From Microvirga arvi (lineage in GTDB: Bacteria; Pseudomonadota; Alphaproteobacteria; Rhizobiales; Beijerinckiaceae): a DNA stretch of 64,000 nucleotides. This document shows, piece by piece, positions 12,950-30,910 of this stretch. The first letter of the stretch is position 1, and every line of letters begins with the position of its first letter. The stretch spans positions 1-64,000 of the forward strand of contig NZ_JAFEMD010000013.1 of assembly GCF_016892765.1 (NCBI RefSeq). The letters are read 5' to 3'. Position numbers and translations under genes: made by a program. The notes beneath the pieces are model-generated. The model was not told the DNA's origin, ran no database searches, and saw only the letters and a list, made by a program, of their open reading frames with translations.

Positions 12950-13834
12950 TTACGGATTCAACCGACGGCACAAGCCGTCGAGCTGCTCCAGGGTCTTGTA
13001 CTGGATGCGCAGCTCGCCGCCCTTTCCCCGGTGATCGATGCTGACGGTCAGGCCGAGCACGTCCTGCAGGGCCTTTTCCAGGGCGCGGGTGTCGGGGTCC
13101 TTCTCGATCTTGCCGGTCTTGGCGGCCTTGGCCGCGGCCTTCGCCGATCCGCCCGTGTCGGCTTGGGCGATCTCTTCGACCTGGCGCACGCTCATGCCTT
13201 CGCTGACGATGCGCTTGGCGATGTCGACCGGGTTGTTGACCGAGAGCAGGGCGCGACCGTGGCCGGCGGTGATCTGCCGGTCGATCAGGAGCTTGCGGAC
13301 GGTCACCGGCAGCTCGGTGAGCCGCAGCATGTTGGCGATGTGGCTGCGGCTCTTGCCGATGATCTTCGAGAGATTCTCCTGGGTGTAGGAGAACTCCGCC
13401 ATCAGGCGGGAATAGCCCTCCGCCTCTTCGATGGGATTGAGGTCGGCGCGCTGGACGTTCTCGAGGATCGCGTATTCGAGCGAGGTCTTGTCGTCGATCT
13501 GGACGACGACCACCGGCACCCGATGCATGCCCGCCTTCTGCGCCGCGCGCCAGCGGCGCTCGCCGGCGACGATCTCGTATTCGTCCCGGTGGTTAGGCAG
13601 CGGCCGCACGACGATGGGCTGGATGATGCCGCGATCCTTGATCGACTGCGTCAGCTCCTGCAGATCCGTGTCGTCGAAGACTTTTCGCGGATTGCGCGGG
13701 TTTGCGCGCAGGAACTCCACCGGCACGGATTTCGGCACGAAGCCCTTGCGCTCGAGGGTGCCCATCTCCTCCCCGACCTCACCGATCAGGGCGGCCAAAC
13801 CACGGCCCAGGCGCGACTTTCCTTCTTCAGCCAT
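12950..13834 (-). CDS. parB: Chromosome partitioning protein ParB (CTPase, parS-binding)
   Basis: A 294-residue centromere-binding protein that loads at parS and spreads on DNA as a CTP-dependent clamp. The start is ATG 13834 (MAEEGKSRLGRGLAALIG, the typical alphaproteobacterial ParB opening); a longer open frame upstream overlaps parA. The N-terminal domain has LRANPRNPRKVFDD, GIIQPIVVRP and the CTP-binding GERRWRAAQKAG. The helix-turn-helix region reads YTQENLSKIIGKSRSHIANM and ITAGHGRALL. The C-terminal dimerisation domain follows an Ala/Lys linker. It starts 17 bases after parA, and the matching parS sites lie 1.4 and 3.4 kb away. Confidence 0.97.
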   Translation of the reverse strand: MAEEGKSRLGRGLAALIGEVGEEMGTLERKGFVPKSVPVEFLRANPRNPRKVFDDTDLQELTQSIKDRGIIQPIVVRPLPNHRDEYEIVAGERRWRAAQKAGMHRVPVVVVQIDDKTSLEYAILENVQRADLNPIEEAEGYSRLMAEFSYTQENLSKIIGKSRSHIANMLRLTELPVTVRKLLIDRQITAGHGRALLSVNNPVDIAKRIVSEGMSVRQVEEIAQADTGGSAKAAAKAAKTGKIEKDPDTRALEKALQDVLGLTVSIDHRGKGGELRIQYKTLEQLDGLCRRLNP

Positions 13835-13851
13835 TATCGTCTCTCGATGGT

Positions 13852-14691
13852 TCAAGCGGCACGGAGGGCGCGTTCGCGCTGGATGACTTCGGAGGCCAGC
13901 CGCAGATAGGCCTGCGATCCGGCGCATTTCAGATCGTAGAGCAGCACCGGCTTGCCGTGCGACGGCGCCTCGGACACGCGCACGTTGCGAGGGATCATGG
14001 TCTCGTAGACCTTGGCCCCCATGAACTGGCGCACATCGGCGACCACCTGCCCCGAGAGGTTGTTGCGCGGGTCGAACATGGTCAGCACGACGCCGTGAAT
14101 CGTGAGATCCGGGTTCAGGGCGGAACGGACCTGCTCGACCGTCTTGAGCAGCTGGCTGAGGCCTTCCAGAGCAAAAAATTCGCATTGGAGCGGCACCAGA
14201 ACCGCGTCAGCCGCCGTCAAGGCGTTGATGGTCAGGAGATTGAGCGATGGCGGGCAATCGATCAAAATATAGGTAAAAGGTTCGCTTACCTCGGGCGCTG
14301 AAAGTTGCTGAATCGCCGAGCGGAGGCGGTGAGCCCGGTTACGCTCACTGGCGATCTCCAACTCGACGCCGAGCAGGTCGAGCGTCGACGGCGCGACGGC
14401 CAATCCGGGCACCACCGTCTCGGTGATGCTCTCGGCCAGGGAGGCTTCACCGGCGAGCACGTGGTAGGTCGAGGTCTGGCGGTTCTTGCGGTCGATGCCG
14501 AGACCCGTCGAGGCGTTGCCCTGCGGATCGAGATCGATGATCAGCACCTTCTCGCCGATGGCAGCGAGAGCCGTTCCAAGATTGATCGCCGTCGTCGTCT
14601 TTCCGACGCCGCCCTTCTGATTGGCGAGCACGAGAACGCGCGGCTTCACCCCAGGCGCGCCTGCTTCGGGTCCGTTGCGATCGGTCATCAT
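13852..14691 (-). CDS. parA: Chromosome partitioning ATPase ParA
   Basis: A 279-residue Walker-type ATPase that binds DNA non-specifically and moves ParB-parS complexes toward the cell pole. The deviant Walker A is KGGVGKTTTAINLG, followed by LIIDLDPQGNASTGLG, LIDCPPSLNLLT and VLTMFDPRNNLS. ATG 14691 shares an ATGA overlap with the rsmG stop, typical of translational coupling, and a second ATG follows at once. A longer open frame to 14775 lies inside rsmG and is not needed. It sits in the operon mnmG-rsmG-parA-parB. Confidence 0.97.
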   Translation of the reverse strand: MMTDRNGPEAGAPGVKPRVLVLANQKGGVGKTTTAINLGTALAAIGEKVLIIDLDPQGNASTGLGIDRKNRQTSTYHVLAGEASLAESITETVVPGLAVAPSTLDLLGVELEIASERNRAHRLRSAIQQLSAPEVSEPFTYILIDCPPSLNLLTINALTAADAVLVPLQCEFFALEGLSQLLKTVEQVRSALNPDLTIHGVVLTMFDPRNNLSGQVVADVRQFMGAKVYETMIPRNVRVSEAPSHGKPVLLYDLKCAGSQAYLRLASEVIQRERALRAA

Positions 14692-15311
14692 GAATGGCTC
14701 TCGATGGAGGTTATGCGGAGAATCCGGGCTTCGGAATCGGTCAAGCTCGGCAGGATCTCCGCTTCGAATGTCCACTTTTTCCGGGCTTCGGTCAATTCGA
14801 TCTCGACATCGCGCCCCTTGGGGTAGAGGCCGATCGTCCCCGCTTTCAACACAGGTACAGTCCAGTCCAGGAGCTGGGTCAGCCCCGCCAAAGCCCGGGC
14901 CGAGACTACATCGGCCTTGCCGACGAAACCAGGAATGACGGTTTCGAGCCGTGCTTCATGGATGGTCGCAGCGGAACTGGTCAGCCGCACGATATGCCTC
15001 AGGAAGGCGCATTTGCGCGAGTTGCTCTCGACGAGATGGACCTTCAGCCCCCTCTCCGCCCCTGCTATCGCGAGAACGAGACCCGGAAATCCGGCCCCGG
15101 AGCCGAGATCGAGCCAGGTTCTGGCCTCGGGCGCGAGGTCGAGAAGCTGGAGCGAATCGGCGATATGGCGGTCCCAGATCCGGTCGAGGGTTGCCGGACC
15201 GACGAGGTTCTTGATCGCCTGCCAGCGGCGAAGTTCCCGTTCCAGAAGCTCCAGCTTGTCGAATGTTTCACGTGAAACATTGAGGTCAGCGGCAGTCCTG
15301 GCCGGCGTCAT
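14688..15311 (-). CDS. rsmG: 16S rRNA (guanine-N7) methyltransferase RsmG (GidB)
   Basis: A 207-residue SAM-dependent methyltransferase that makes m7G527 in 16S rRNA; loss in other bacteria gives low-level streptomycin resistance. The SAM-binding motif is [16 protein letters not shown], with [16 protein letters not shown] and [13 protein letters not shown] following. Residues 11-17 (NVSRETF) are encoded by a perfect parS site, so the N-terminus has a second constraint. It overlaps mnmG by four bases upstream (ATGA) and parA by four bases downstream, giving a coupled operon. Confidence 0.95.
15264..15279. other. parS: parS centromere site inside rsmG
   Basis: TGTTTCACGTGAAACA is a perfect 16-bp palindrome identical to the bacterial parS consensus bound by ParB. 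It lies in codons 11-16 of rsmG and encodes N-V-S-R-E-T. ParB is encoded 1.4 kb away on the same strand. Confidence 0.95.
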
Positions 15312-17257: not shown

Positions 17258-17273
17258 TGTTTCACGTGAAACA
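17258..17273. other. parS: parS centromere site upstream of mnmG
   Basis: A second exact TGTTTCACGTGAAACA. The palindrome extends four bases further on each side (AAAA and TTTT), giving a perfect 24-bp inverted repeat at 17254-17277. It lies in the mnmG-mnmE gap, about 2 kb from the parS in rsmG. Being intergenic, it could also influence mnmG operon transcription when ParB is bound. Confidence 0.95.
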
Positions 17274-25069: not shown

Positions 25070-26107
25070 TTAAGCCCCCCGCACGCGGGCGATCATCTGC
25101 GCCACGTGCTCGATCGGCGTCTCCGGCAGGATGCCGTGTCCGAGATTGAAGATGTGCGGGCGGCCGCGGGCCGCTGCGAGAACATGATCAACGCCCTTTT
25201 CGAGTGGATCTCCCCCTGCGATCAGGGCCAGAGGATCGAGATTGCCCTGGGTGGCGAGCGTGTTCGGCAGGGTCGGCAGCACCTGTGCCGGATCCAGCGT
25301 CCAGTCGAGCGCCAGCGCGTCGCCGATCCCGGCCGAGGCGAAGCGATGAAGGTTCGCGCCGCCGCCGCGCACGAACACGATGACCTTGGCATGCGGCCGT
25401 GCCTGCTTCAGGCCCTCGACCATGCGGCGGATCGGGTTCAGCGACAGCCGGTCGAAGAGCGCCGGCGGCAGCGCCGACCCGAAGCTCTCGAAGATCTGCA
25501 CGGCTTCCGCGCCCGCATCGATCTGGCGGATGAGGTAAGACGTGGAGGCCCGCACCAGCCGGTCGATGAGCGCGTCCATGAAGGCGGGATCGCGATAGGC
25601 GGTGAGCCGGGCCGGCGCCTGGTCCGGGGTGCCCTTGCCGGCGATCATGTAGCTCGCCACCGTCCAGGGCGCGCCGCAGAAACCGAGAAGCGTCGTCTCC
25701 TTCGGCAGGCTCTTGCTCAGGCGGTCGAGGGTCTCGAAGACCGGATCGAGGCGCTCAAGCGGCAATTCATCGGCGAGCCTCGCAAAATCCGCCTGGGCGG
25801 TGACCGGATCGAGCCTCGGCCCCTCGTTCTCGACGAAGCGCACGTCCTGGCCGAGCGCATGGGGAATGACCAGGATGTCGGAGAACAGGATCGAGGCGTC
25901 GAAGCCGAAGCGGCGGATCGGCTGAAGCGTCACCTCCTCGGCGAGCCGCGGATTGTAGCAGAGATCCAGGAAGGAGCCCGCCTGCTTCCGGGTCTCCCGG
26001 TATTCCGGCAGGTAGCGGCCGGCCTGACGCATGATCCAGATCGGCAGAGGCCAGACCGGCTCGCCATTCAGCACGCGCAAAATCGCCTTGGTGGAACGTG
26101 TGCTCAC
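25070..26107 (-). CDS. hemE: Uroporphyrinogen decarboxylase
   Basis: A 345-residue TIM-barrel enzyme that converts uroporphyrinogen III to coproporphyrinogen III. The substrate-binding N-terminal signature PIWIMRQAGRYLPEYR begins at residue 22, and GFCGAPWTVASYMIAGKG and FNLGHGILPETPIEHV are in place. Length is normal. It is the first gene left of the putative origin and is transcribed away from it; hemE flanks the chromosomal origin in Caulobacter, Rickettsia and Sinorhizobium as established knowledge. A divergent ppsR gene lies across the 380-base gap. Confidence 0.97.
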   Translation of the reverse strand: MSTRSTKAILRVLNGEPVWPLPIWIMRQAGRYLPEYRETRKQAGSFLDLCYNPRLAEEVTLQPIRRFGFDASILFSDILVIPHALGQDVRFVENEGPRLDPVTAQADFARLADELPLERLDPVFETLDRLSKSLPKETTLLGFCGAPWTVASYMIAGKGTPDQAPARLTAYRDPAFMDALIDRLVRASTSYLIRQIDAGAEAVQIFESFGSALPPALFDRLSLNPIRRMVEGLKQARPHAKVIVFVRGGGANLHRFASAGIGDALALDWTLDPAQVLPTLPNTLATQGNLDPLALIAGGDPLEKGVDHVLAAARGRPHIFNLGHGILPETPIEHVAQMIARVRGA

Positions 26108-26126
26108 AGGCCCTCTCTTAAAAGAA

Positions 26127-26150
26127 GAATCTTTGAATCTTAGAATCTGA
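26127..26150 (+). repeat. Three tandem 8-mers with GANTC sites in the origin AT-rich segment
   Basis: GAATCTTT, GAATCTTA and GAATCTGA follow one another without gaps. Each begins with GAATC, a target of the cell-cycle methyltransferase CcrM (GANTC). The repeats sit in the most AT-rich part of the hemE/ppsR gap, where a DNA-unwinding element would be expected. Confidence 0.7.
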
Positions 26151-26218
26151 TGTTTCTCTTGGGCCGTGAATCACAAAGCCGCAACCCCGTCCACAAGCGG
26201 TCCACACAGGGCTTGGGT

Positions 26219-26233
26219 TTAACGGTTCATTAA
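26219..26233. promoter_or_regulatory. CtrA-type binding site 1 in the origin
   Basis: TTAACGGTTCATTAA is an exact match to TTAA-N7-TTAA, the consensus of the master cell-cycle regulator CtrA, which blocks initiation when bound to the Caulobacter origin. Confidence 0.65.
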
Positions 26234-26277
26234 CGGATGGGGCACGCTCGCCACAATCCTTTCTGAAATCTTAAAGC

Positions 26278-26292
26278 TTAACAGCCCGTTAA
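26278..26292. promoter_or_regulatory. CtrA-type binding site 2 in the origin, with flanking half-sites
   Basis: TTAACAGCCCGTTAA is a second exact TTAA-N7-TTAA. Extra TTAA half-sites at 26271-26274 and 26299-26302 make a cluster of four within 32 bases. Confidence 0.65.
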
Positions 26293-26445
26293 CGAAGGTT
26301 AACCAAAACTGAATTCGGCGCTTGGAGGTGATTCGTGCCGGATTCTCCCAATGCGGGACCTCGAGAGGCGCACAACGGGCACCCCTGTTGATGGCTTTGG
26401 CCGTATCCCACAGGCGCTTGTGCTGGACCTCTTCGCCTGAGCGTT

Positions 26446-26454
26446 TTATCCACA
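26446..26454 (+). other. Consensus DnaA box in the origin
   Basis: TTATCCACA is a perfect match to the strong bacterial DnaA box. It lies 34 bases before the ppsR start codon. Confidence 0.75.
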
Positions 26455-26487
26455 CTGATCGACTCCTTTCCCTGGAGAACCGGATCC

Positions 26488-27318
26488 GTGGGACGCAGTT
26501 ACTTTCATCTCCATCTCGTCTCCGACTCGACGGGCGAAACGCTCATCACCGTCGCCCGCGCGGTGGTCGCCCAATATGAGGGCGTCGCCGCCATCGAGCA
26601 CGTCTATCCGCTCGTGCGCTCCAACACCCAGCTGGAGCGCGTGATCAGCGAGATCGAGACTGCGCCCGGCATCGTGCTCTACACCCTCGTGGAGCAGGAC
26701 CTCGCCAGCCGCCTCGAGGAGGTCTGCCGCGCGACCGGCTCGCCTTATCTCTCCGTGCTCGAGCCGGTGCATGCCCTGCTCTCCTCCTATCTCGGCACCC
26801 ATTCCACCGCGCGACCCGGCGCGCAGCACATGCTGAATGCGGAGTATTTCAAGCGCATCGACGCCATGAACTTCACCCTCATGCACGATGACGGGCACCT
26901 GCCGCACGATCTCGACGAGGCGGATGTGATCCTGGTGGGCGTGAGCCGCACCTCGAAGACGCCGACCTCCATCTATCTCGCCAACCGGGGCCTCAAGACC
27001 GCCAACATCCCGCTCGTTCCCGGCGTGCCGCCGCCAGCCATCCTCGAGACGGCCAGGAAGGCGCTGATCGTCGGCCTGGTGGCGACGCCCGAGCGCATCG
27101 TGCAGATCCGGCAGAACCGGCTTCTGAGCCTGAACGCCGATGACGACACCTCTTATGTGGACCGCGAGGCGGTGGCCGAGGAGCTGGCGGCGTCCCGCCG
27201 GCTCTTCGCGCGCAACGGCTGGCCGGTGATCGACGTGACCCGCCGCTCGATCGAGGAGACGGCGGCCGCGATCATCGATCACTACCGGGACCGCCGCCAG
27301 CGCCAGAACGCGGAATAG
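26488..27318 (+). CDS. ppsR: PEP synthase / pyruvate phosphate dikinase regulatory kinase-phosphorylase (DUF299)
   Basis: A 276-residue bifunctional ADP-dependent kinase and Pi-dependent pyrophosphorylase that switches PEP synthase or pyruvate phosphate dikinase off and on by phosphorylating an active-site Thr. It starts at GTG 26488 with TGGAGA about 10 bases upstream. The opening [14 protein letters not shown] and the nucleotide-binding [11 protein letters not shown] (151-161) define the family. The dikinase target is outside the window. It is the first gene right of the putative origin and starts a tightly packed run with maf, aroE, coaE and dnaQ, as in Caulobacter. Confidence 0.93.
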
Positions 27319-30234: not shown

Positions 30235-30561
30235 CTAGAGGATAGTCTCGATCCCTTTCTTATCAGCGAGAGCTAGCAGCTTAAGGGCGGAGCCGGTCGG
30301 CTTCTTCTCCCCACGCTCCCACTTGCTCACCATGTTGGCAGTGACGTTGAGAGCTGCTGCAAAGGTCGCTTGGCTCATAAGGGATTTCTCCCGGATCCGC
30401 CTCACGTCATCTGGCTCTATAGGGTCCACAGGGGTGAGACATGCCACATCGAAGTGGCGCATCGTTGCCTTATCGATGGCGCCTACCTTGTGGAGGCCCT
30501 TCATCGCCAGATGGACTGATCGAAGCGGATCGCTCCGATATGCCTTTCTGGTACTTTTCAT
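30235..30561 (-). CDS. Helix-turn-helix antitoxin of a type II TA pair (NadS-like)
   Basis: A 108-residue XRE-type DNA-binding antitoxin. ATG 30561 gives MKSTRKAYRSDPLRS; a TTG two codons upstream is less likely. The N-terminal part (VHLAMKGLHKVGAIDKATMRHF) is typical of antitoxins paired with this toxin family. The helix-turn-helix is residues about 50-85 (DVRRIREKSLMSQATFAAAL, NVTANMVSKWERGEKKPTG). It should neutralise the toxin and repress the operon. It overlaps the toxin reading frame by 92 bases. GC content is visibly lower than in neighbouring genes, suggesting acquisition by transfer. Confidence 0.85.
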   Translation of the reverse strand: MKSTRKAYRSDPLRSVHLAMKGLHKVGAIDKATMRHFDVACLTPVDPIEPDDVRRIREKSLMSQATFAAALNVTANMVSKWERGEKKPTGSALKLLALADKKGIETIL

Positions 30562-30910
30562 ATTCAATCTCGATCCATTCTCCGGTGTCGATCAACGCCG
30601 GGATATGCACGTCTCCGATATTCGCAAGCACTTTGGCCGCGTCTCGAAAGACGGTTTCCTCGTATGAGGATAGATTGGCTTTCCGACTCTTCGGAAAGAT
30701 GTGGAGAAACACCGCTCTATCGCCCCGCTTGTAGACGATAACAGTCCGGTAATCTCCAGAGCGGCCCATCCGCTGCTTGATCAGGAACTTCCCGACTTCA
30801 GAATCGATATGGCCTTTTTCTGCGCGGGCAATTGCTTCGCACAGGTCTTCATCACTGATCTTGTTCTTACGCGCCTCGCGGGCCGCGTCCTTTAACTTGT
30901 AAACTTTCAT
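30470..30910 (-). CDS. RelE/HigB-like toxin of a type II TA pair (PF06296-type)
   Basis: A 146-residue protein. The first ~115 residues match RelE-like toxins that cleave mRNA on the ribosome: MKVYKLKDAAREARKNKISD, DLCEAIARAEKGHIDSEVGK, KQRMGRSGDYRTVIVYKRGD, FLHIFPKSRKANLSSYEETV. It is the first gene of the pair. The C-terminal ~30 residues after EYEKY (QKGISERSASISPSGDE...) are encoded where the antitoxin is read in another frame and are low-complexity. A natural stop near the antitoxin start may have been lost. About 47-53% GC on two hand-counted lines against about 70% nearby. Confidence 0.85.
   Translation of the reverse strand: MKVYKLKDAAREARKNKISDEDLCEAIARAEKGHIDSEVGKFLIKQRMGRSGDYRTVIVYKRGDRAVFLHIFPKSRKANLSSYEETVFRDAAKVLANIGDVHIPALIDTGEWIEIEYEKYQKGISERSASISPSGDEGPPQGRRHR

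Follow-up and report, generated by a model that had tools for sequence, protein, structure and literature searches.

The gap between the divergent genes hemE and ppsR (DUF299) of Microvirga raises the question whether replication of the chromosome starts there. It lies in the window, i.e., the whole 64-kb stretch of DNA analyzed here (C44:1-64000, of 128,923), which belongs to a draft genome of 229 contigs and 6.46 Mb. A preliminary description had placed hemE divergent from ppsR(DUF299)-maf-aroE-coaE-dnaQ, and this gene order was borne out by profile searches, in which maf, aroE, coaE, and dnaQ downstream of ppsR each obtained a family match, that of the Maf protein scoring under the curated cut-offs of the models concerned. 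The ppsR of the window showed 87–97% identity to the first 19 named Microvirga loci (L002–L020), which places the organism in this genus or in its immediate vicinity. Most of the 2-kb segments from 23 to 30 kb had 63–69% G+C as against 52.6% in the gap. Of the partition genes and sites that had been described at 9–13 kb, two exact parS, parA, and parB were present, and the distance was corrected to ∼8.8–13 kb to the left of the gap. About 4 kb from the proposed origin, a dip in G+C content (30235–30910, minus strand) harbored two small ORFs, which presumably code for a RelE/HigB-type toxin and an Xre-type antitoxin. As in the window, hemE was found on the minus strand at 23–32 kb from the contig start in 17 of 36 same-genus matches (own included), suggesting a common repeat that breaks assemblies there. 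The features of the locus are listed in Table 1.

The chromosomal origin of Sinorhizobium meliloti, a member of the same order, lies beside hemE and is reportedly the subject of a 2006 study by Sibley et al. The origin of Caulobacter has been experimentally defined in the same gene neighborhood (PMC1914354).

Table 1. Coordinates of the hemE/ppsR gap, its sequence elements, and neighboring features in the window.
Feature	Position	Strand	Remarks
hemE/ppsR intergenic gap, proposed oriC	26108..26487	.	380 bp, 52.6% G+C
hemE, flanking gene	25070..26107	-	TIGR01464, 381.7 bits, above cut-off
ppsR / DUF299, flanking gene	26488..27318	+	NF003742, 352.1 bits, above cut-off
Least stable DNA of the window, proposed unwinding element	26111..26162	.	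GANTC at 26127, 26135, 26143
Five T-centred triplets	26147..26161	+	CTG ATG TTT CTC TTG; PWM match, the only one in the window
Inverted DnaA-like box, candidate	26166..26174	-	plus strand reads GTGAATCAC; includes GANTC site 26168
Weak DnaA-like box, candidate	26187..26195	+	CCGTCCACA; TCCACA core in 22/22 rows
Weak DnaA-like box, candidate	26198..26206	+	CGGTCCACA; TCCACA core in 22/22 rows
CtrA-type site TTAA-N7-TTAA	26219..26233	.	kept in 19/22 rows
CtrA-type site TTAA-N7-TTAA	26278..26292	.	kept in 21/22 rows
Imperfect TTAA-N6-TTAA	26289..26302	.	kept in 15/22 rows
GANTC pair (starts 26330, 26341)	26330..26345	.	kept in 22 and 21 of 22 rows
Consensus DnaA box	26446..26454	+	TTATCCACA; exact; sole copy in 64 kb
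GANTC site	26461..26465	.	22/22 rows
parS, exact 16-mer	15264..15279	.	exact match
parS, exact 16-mer	17258..17273	.	exact match
parA	13852..14775	-	Pfam AAA_31 (201.7 bits) and CbiA above cut-offs; NCBIfam ParA models below cut-off
ORF with parB	12950..14185	-	TIGR00180, 188.1 bits, above cut-off; ParB_N, HTH_ParB, ParB_C

Conservation within the genus was evaluated on an alignment of 22 rows comprising the window and 21 named Microvirga loci; L027 and L028, labelled Microvirga, were left out and are included in the 23 "other named Hyphomicrobiales," and for L030 and L055 hemE was not within reach. The mean identity to the window over these rows was 0.974 for the 66 columns of the window's own motifs as compared to 0.748 for the other 314. 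The perfect DnaA box of the preliminary description was verified, and TTATCCACA was present at this place in 12 of the 22 rows and CTATCCACA in the other 10. Over the whole genome, TTATCCACA had 18 copies as against 26 of the reversed control word, and one copy lies before dnaA; hence, a single perfect box is weak evidence, and it was rejected as proof of an origin. Three TCCACA cores were kept in all 22 rows, and across 52 gaps of the order (see below), 104 such cores were counted with 11.4 expected. The gap lacked an exact copy of the IHF consensus WATCAN5WTR in both orientations, and two one-mismatch matches were found as compared to 0.39 expected from the window rate; the place of this site varies among relatives (PMC1914354).

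The 50-mers starting at 26111–26113 ranked first in instability among the 63,950 of the window. The AT-rich tandem repeats described earlier stood in part, as three GAATC copies with an 8-bp pitch (26127, 26135, and 26143) lie within the least stable 50-mer, with a unit of only 7–8 nt; they were not listed by a repeat finder with a 9-nt minimum, and the first copy (26127) was kept in 8 of the 22 rows.

The CtrA-type sites that had been described were also recovered, the two perfect TTAA-N7-TTAA being the only ones in the window, besides the TTAA-N6-TTAA at 26289. In the whole genome, TTAA-N7-TTAAC gave 36 matches on both strands (28 distinct places, counted by hand) as against 8 for the control, and no two distinct sites lay closer together than 1 kb except those at 26219 and 26278, which are separated by 59 bp; the runner-up pair, on C174, has a separation of 1.2 kb. 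For comparison across the order, hemE-side regions were collected from 60 genomes outside the genus and one fetched before; 9 of these 61 loci were dropped (ppsR not adjacent, or contig ended), leaving 52 gaps. These Hyphomicrobiales gaps harbored 21 TTAA-N7-TTAA sites in 20 loci with 0.9 expected from dinucleotide shuffles, and each of the other spacers from 0 to 20 gave 0 to 4 sites. The 20 loci were spread over 15 of 39 families, and 32 of the 52 had no perfect site. Similarly, in the 23 gaps of other named Hyphomicrobiales, spacer 7 accounted for 16 sites in 14 loci and other spacers for at most 3. The named loci were assigned to Hyphomicrobiales, Parvibaculales, Sphingomonadales, or Caulobacterales by record titles and likeness (L054, titled Hyphomicrobiales, being placed in Parvibaculales). 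Outside Hyphomicrobiales, there was one site in 17 Sphingomonadales and none in 15 Parvibaculales hemE/ppsR gaps, and of the two Caulobacterales loci one had two sites.

Predicted CtrA sites are on record for Wolbachia, Rickettsia, and their relatives (PMC1914354). No binding of CtrA is reported at the origin of S. meliloti, which is also described as free of CtrA motifs (PMC4433202), or at that of Brucella abortus (PMC2877005). A predicted CtrA-type site, at which binding is presumed, is thus widespread in Hyphomicrobiales origins though absent from these two models; a literature search that reached few subscription papers found no report of this spread.

Genes for DnaA, CtrA, ChpT, a CcrM-type methylase, and GcrA are present in the genome. 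One CtrA protein was above the curated cut-off (422 bits), and ChpT adjoins it; GcrA was above the Pfam cut-off and below that of NCBIfam (179.5 bits, cut-off 280); the CcrM-type methylase matched Pfam N6_N4_Mtase and RAMA and gave 609 bits with the Caulobacter CcrM model, below its cut-off of 830. Two CtrA-like response regulators (C205:18769-19440 and C146:81478-82149) scored 346 bits against the cut-off of 350, and an identical perfect TTAA-N7-TTAA sequence 1.7–2.4 kb downstream of both points to a segment that was perhaps duplicated.

The gap contained seven GANTC sites (26127, 26135, 26143, 26168, 26330, 26341, and 26461) out of 117 in the window. The count of six within 219 bases given in the preliminary description was correct (26127–26345), and other independent 219-bp stretches of the window held at most 4. 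In the relative G029, sampled over 1.6 Mb, the largest count per 200 bp was 5, which was reached at three places, its hemE gap among them. The sites at 26143, 26168, 26330, and 26461 were kept in all 22 rows, those at 26135 and 26341 in 21, and that at 26127 in 8; the inverted box itself constitutes the GANTC site 26168 in all 22. In 33 loci of the order, the part of the gap from hemE to the triplets contained 44 GANTC with 12.9 expected, in 30 of the 33 loci (10.8 expected), and the rest of the same gaps 73 with 57.9 expected. The corresponding counts were 22 against 5.8 and 55 against 33.7 in 16 named loci, and 48 against 7.6 and 150 against 44.3 in 21 Microvirga. Hence, the excess lies mainly in the unwinding stretch outside Microvirga and in the whole gap within Microvirga.

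The rpsT-dnaA gap (G000:C163:191918-192700, L171) harbored an exact DnaA box at 192017 and 12 GANTC sites, 9 of them within 200 bp. Densities of 5 to 10 per 200 bp were found in this gap in 29 of 30 genus loci; at the thirtieth, L205, the match starts at contig base 427 without usable upstream DNA, so that its 3 per 200 bp do not represent a promoter. A GANTC run spaced 11/12-10-11 bp precedes dnaA in 22 of the 30 loci. GANTC density was rejected as proof of an origin, as the dnaA promoter is denser still.

In E. coli, GATC sites are gathered at oriC and in the dnaA promoter and both are sequestered, a behavior that Campbell and Kleckner are said to have described in 1990. The layout observed here is alike in that methylation sites cluster at the origin and before dnaA, and unlike in that GANTC sites and a CcrM-type enzyme are involved in a genome without a member of the SeqA family: no match to PF03925 was obtained in the genome, and the E. 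coli control was detected. The arrangement may resemble Dam/SeqA sequestration without being classed there, SeqA being absent, and an unrelated binder is conceivable.

Alternatively, the GANTC sites may play no role in replication and mark methylation-dependent promoters, those of hemE and dnaA, a reading to which we give even chances. It is in agreement with the higher density before dnaA, with the modest excess over whole gaps of the order set (171 as against 106.8 expected), and with Caulobacter, where GANTC sites are known in the origin and loss of CcrM left replication control unchanged (PMC3973325). However, the concentration of the order-set excess between hemE and the triplets, and the placement of one Microvirga site inside the inverted box in every row, argue against this reading. 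In Agrobacterium, methylation affects ori2, for which a SeqA-like reading has been proposed (PMC11514494). A role of methylation at the origin described here is possible.

The block at the hemE side was described by a 32-column motif, which was derived from the conserved Microvirga block set against other families and trained on the 52 order gaps. Scores above 8 were obtained in 37 of these 52 gaps, none on the reverse strand, and in 1.4% of letter-shuffled gaps, training and test sets overlapping. Outside the training set, scores of at least 12 were found at a similar place in 21 of 21 Microvirga loci and 16 of 23 other named Hyphomicrobiales. The match in the window spans 26147–26178, and no other position in the 64 kb reaches its score. 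In 34 loci, the layout consisted of an A/T-rich stretch, five triplets, GGCN, and the inverted box GTGGATTAC followed by ATT; a direct TCCACA-like box came at +43 and a less pronounced one at +54, corresponding to 26190 and 26201 in the window. The middle T of the triplets had frequencies of 0.97, 0.94, 0.85, 0.94, and 1.00, and the other columns 0.26–0.65.

When anchored on the box, the mean T content of the three phases was 0.52/0.72/0.38 in the order set (38 of 52 anchored; 0 of 2,000 within-row shuffles) and 0.40/0.62/0.46 in the named set (17 of 23 anchored; 8 of 2,000), common descent being ignored in all these shuffles. The 3-nt period was weak if any in Parvibaculales (101 of 2,000) and was not seen in the two Caulobacterales loci (573 of 2,000). 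Parvibaculales gaps (e.g., L036 and L054) had tandem GTGGATNN boxes proximal to hemE in a layout unlike that of Hyphomicrobiales. In Sphingomonadales gaps (e.g., L069 and L070), the motif exceeded 12 in 4 of 17, and box-anchored T residues with a 3-nt phase were observed; a shifted variant of the module of T triplets and inverted box may be present there. The possibility that the triplets code for part of a longer HemE was rejected, as their distance to the hemE start fell in all three phases (12, 14, and 11 of 37 loci).

The strand taken to carry the canonical trio relative to the box was assigned from the geometry of the E. coli and B. subtilis origins, and the geometry of the present module resembles that of E. 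coli. On this presumed canonical strand, the central base is T in 0.85–1.0 of the 34 loci, with central A on the other strand. The bacterial basal unwinding system (BUS) comprises a DnaA box, a short GC-rich spacer, and at least three central-adenine triplets next to an AT-rich stretch, and a search pattern requiring central A gave candidates in 1,755 of 2,070 origins (85%), with Alphaproteobacteria on the tree and perhaps already among the candidates (PMC8287927). In B. subtilis, Asn187 contacts the amino group of the central adenine and a change from A to T weakens opening (PMC10721633). In an alignment to structure 8btg, Microvirga DnaA has Tyr opposite this Asn187; the same stretch was found in 28 of 30 Microvirga dnaA loci, the other two being unmatched by the pattern. 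T-rich single-strand sites, 5′-TTATT-3′ and 5′-TTGT-3′, are reported for E. coli (PMC8235120).

The module may work like a DnaA-trio. The two are alike in having a DnaA-like box beside the repeats (GTGAATCAC in Microvirga, GTGGATTAC as order consensus), to which DnaA would presumably bind, here at 26166–26174; they differ in the central T instead of A on the strand assigned from general geometry, and owing to this central base the module was not classed as a DnaA-trio. It appears somewhat unlikely that the element is a plain canonical trio with central A, the strand having been wrongly assigned, or a canonical element in reversed polarity. NAN triplets do appear on one of its strands, the assignment of the canonical strand is provisional, and the frequency of BUS candidates given above would favor such an element here; on the other hand, the A-bearing strand runs the opposite way given the E. 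coli and B. subtilis geometry, and reversal of the trio abolished opening in Helicobacter pylori (PMC8235120).

Another reading, which we consider improbable as a replacement although compatible with an origin role, takes the block 26147–26206 as promoter or leader of hemE, with the GANTC and CtrA sites regulating transcription of hemE and ppsR. The block sits 39 bp from the hemE start, and both kinds of sites control transcription elsewhere. However, the distance to hemE varies across the order (29–93 bp in 32 of 37 loci, in all phases as above), whereas the spacing from the triplets through the inverted box to the first direct box is the same, without gaps, in most of the 34 loci, and the abundance of TCCACA cores in the 52 gaps also argues against this reading.

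Strand bias was taken from two genomes of the same genus, as the contigs of the own draft genome cannot be ordered. The preliminary description had proposed a search for a skew minimum near the gap, and in both relatives skew and KOPS switched near hemE and away from dnaA. The G029 sequence forms one contig of 4,403,107 bp with hemE at 4,353,986–4,355,017; across 80 samples of 20 kb each, its best positive-skew arc ran from 4.33 to 2.24 Mb and was matched by 0 of 300 permutations. The polarity of the word GGGNAGGG, which we take to be of the KOPS type as in E. coli, flipped together with the skew; its optimum was at 4,333,873 (58 of 74 agree), 20 kb from hemE, and hemE as breakpoint gave 51 of 74. 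The raw cumulative-skew minimum, within 188 kb around the origin, was at 4,313,787; being 40 kb off hemE, it was rejected as a pinpoint of the origin. In G036 (a 4.20-Mb contig, 41 samples, hemE at 25.5 kb), KOPS switched from the sample with its centre at 5 kb to that at 20 kb, and skew between those at 4.105 Mb and 5 kb, a bracket of ∼100 kb. In both genomes the origin is thus expected near hemE, with the terminus about opposite, the switch being bracketed rather than pinpointed.

A better cluster of sites elsewhere, which would have spoken against the gap, was searched for with a score that combined DNA instability with the GANTC sites, CtrA-type sites, and TCCACA cores, and which ranks rather than tests since it was assembled after the gap had been seen. 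The hemE gap came out on top in all three samples, among 31,360 windows for G029 (1.6 of 4.40 Mb scored), 15,872 for G036 (0.81 of 4.20 Mb), and 2,353 for the own genome (119 kb). The hemE gap of G029 had no perfect CtrA-type site and no exact TTATCCACA. That the real origin lies at dnaA in the rpsT-dnaA gap, as in many bacteria, with the hemE gap as a mere shared promoter region, is very improbable: the dnaA promoter has the exact box and GANTC sites described above and ranked second in the own sample, but it lacks a CtrA-type site, dnaA lies on an arm 377 kb (G029, 0.329 Mb, with the switch at 4.33 Mb) and 197 kb (G036, 4.024 Mb) from hemE, and the G036 samples at 4.000 Mb, 4.105 Mb, and 5 kb all have the left-arm KOPS sign (0/2, 0/2, and 0/4).

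Taken together, the flanking genes, the motifs with their conservation, and the strand-bias switch near hemE in two relatives indicate that the gap is very probably oriC, from which the chromosome of this Microvirga is replicated, and the origin function suggested in the preliminary description is supported by the switch and by the combined-score rank. The origin is of the known hemE-ppsR type, and since its location is what established knowledge predicts, the assignment is an ordinary one. The characters of a Cori-type origin found here were divergent hemE-ppsR, one exact DnaA box with three conserved TCCACA cores, two perfect predicted CtrA-type sites, an easily opened stretch, and a strand-bias switch within 20–40 kb in G029 and bracketed in G036. 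Caulobacter crescentus Cori shares the hemE/DUF299 flanks and DnaA boxes of mixed strength as well as CtrA TTAA-N7-TTAA, an AT-rich stretch, and several GANTC (PMC1914354, PMC4468827, PMC3973325). It differs in having five CtrA sites, as compared to two perfect CtrA-type sites here, where there is also one consensus DnaA box and no exact IHF consensus; neither the triplet element nor a GANTC-bearing unwinding stretch was found described for Cori in these papers. The S. meliloti origin differs in that CtrA motifs and CtrA binding are reported to be absent (PMC4433202), as against two predicted sites in Microvirga.

Opening of this origin could proceed as follows. The consensus box at 26446, together with the weak boxes at 26187, 26198, and 26166, would serve as loading sites for DnaA, whose oligomer would open the least stable DNA (26111–26162); the register for single-strand binding would come from the five T-centred triplets that adjoin the inverted box. 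CtrA in its phosphorylated form would occupy the two sites lying between the boxes and so block or time the opening. In the least certain step, CcrM methylation of GANTC in the unwinding stretch and the inverted box may mark an origin that has just been replicated. In its most general form, for Hyphomicrobiales as a whole, this would amount to a T-centred BUS variant matched by a change in DnaA, which in Microvirga has Tyr in place of the Asn187 of B. subtilis, with fork-marked CcrM sites built into the unwinding stretch (in Microvirga also into the DnaA-like box) and CtrA sites beside it in many families; the full combination is put forward as a speculation that we consider rather unlikely.

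The practical use of the origin assignment lies chiefly in mapping, in the orientation of assemblies, and in the construction of replicating vectors. Three questions become testable: whether CcrM marks have a function at the origin, as was suggested long ago and tested in Caulobacter with a negative outcome; whether CtrA directly controls replication in Hyphomicrobiales beyond the two models without origin binding; and whether the single-strand specificity of DnaA moved from A to T triplets along with one residue. If the general reading is true, a stretch of ∼200 bp would bring together the opening of the origin, the memory of its replication, and the control of the cell cycle.
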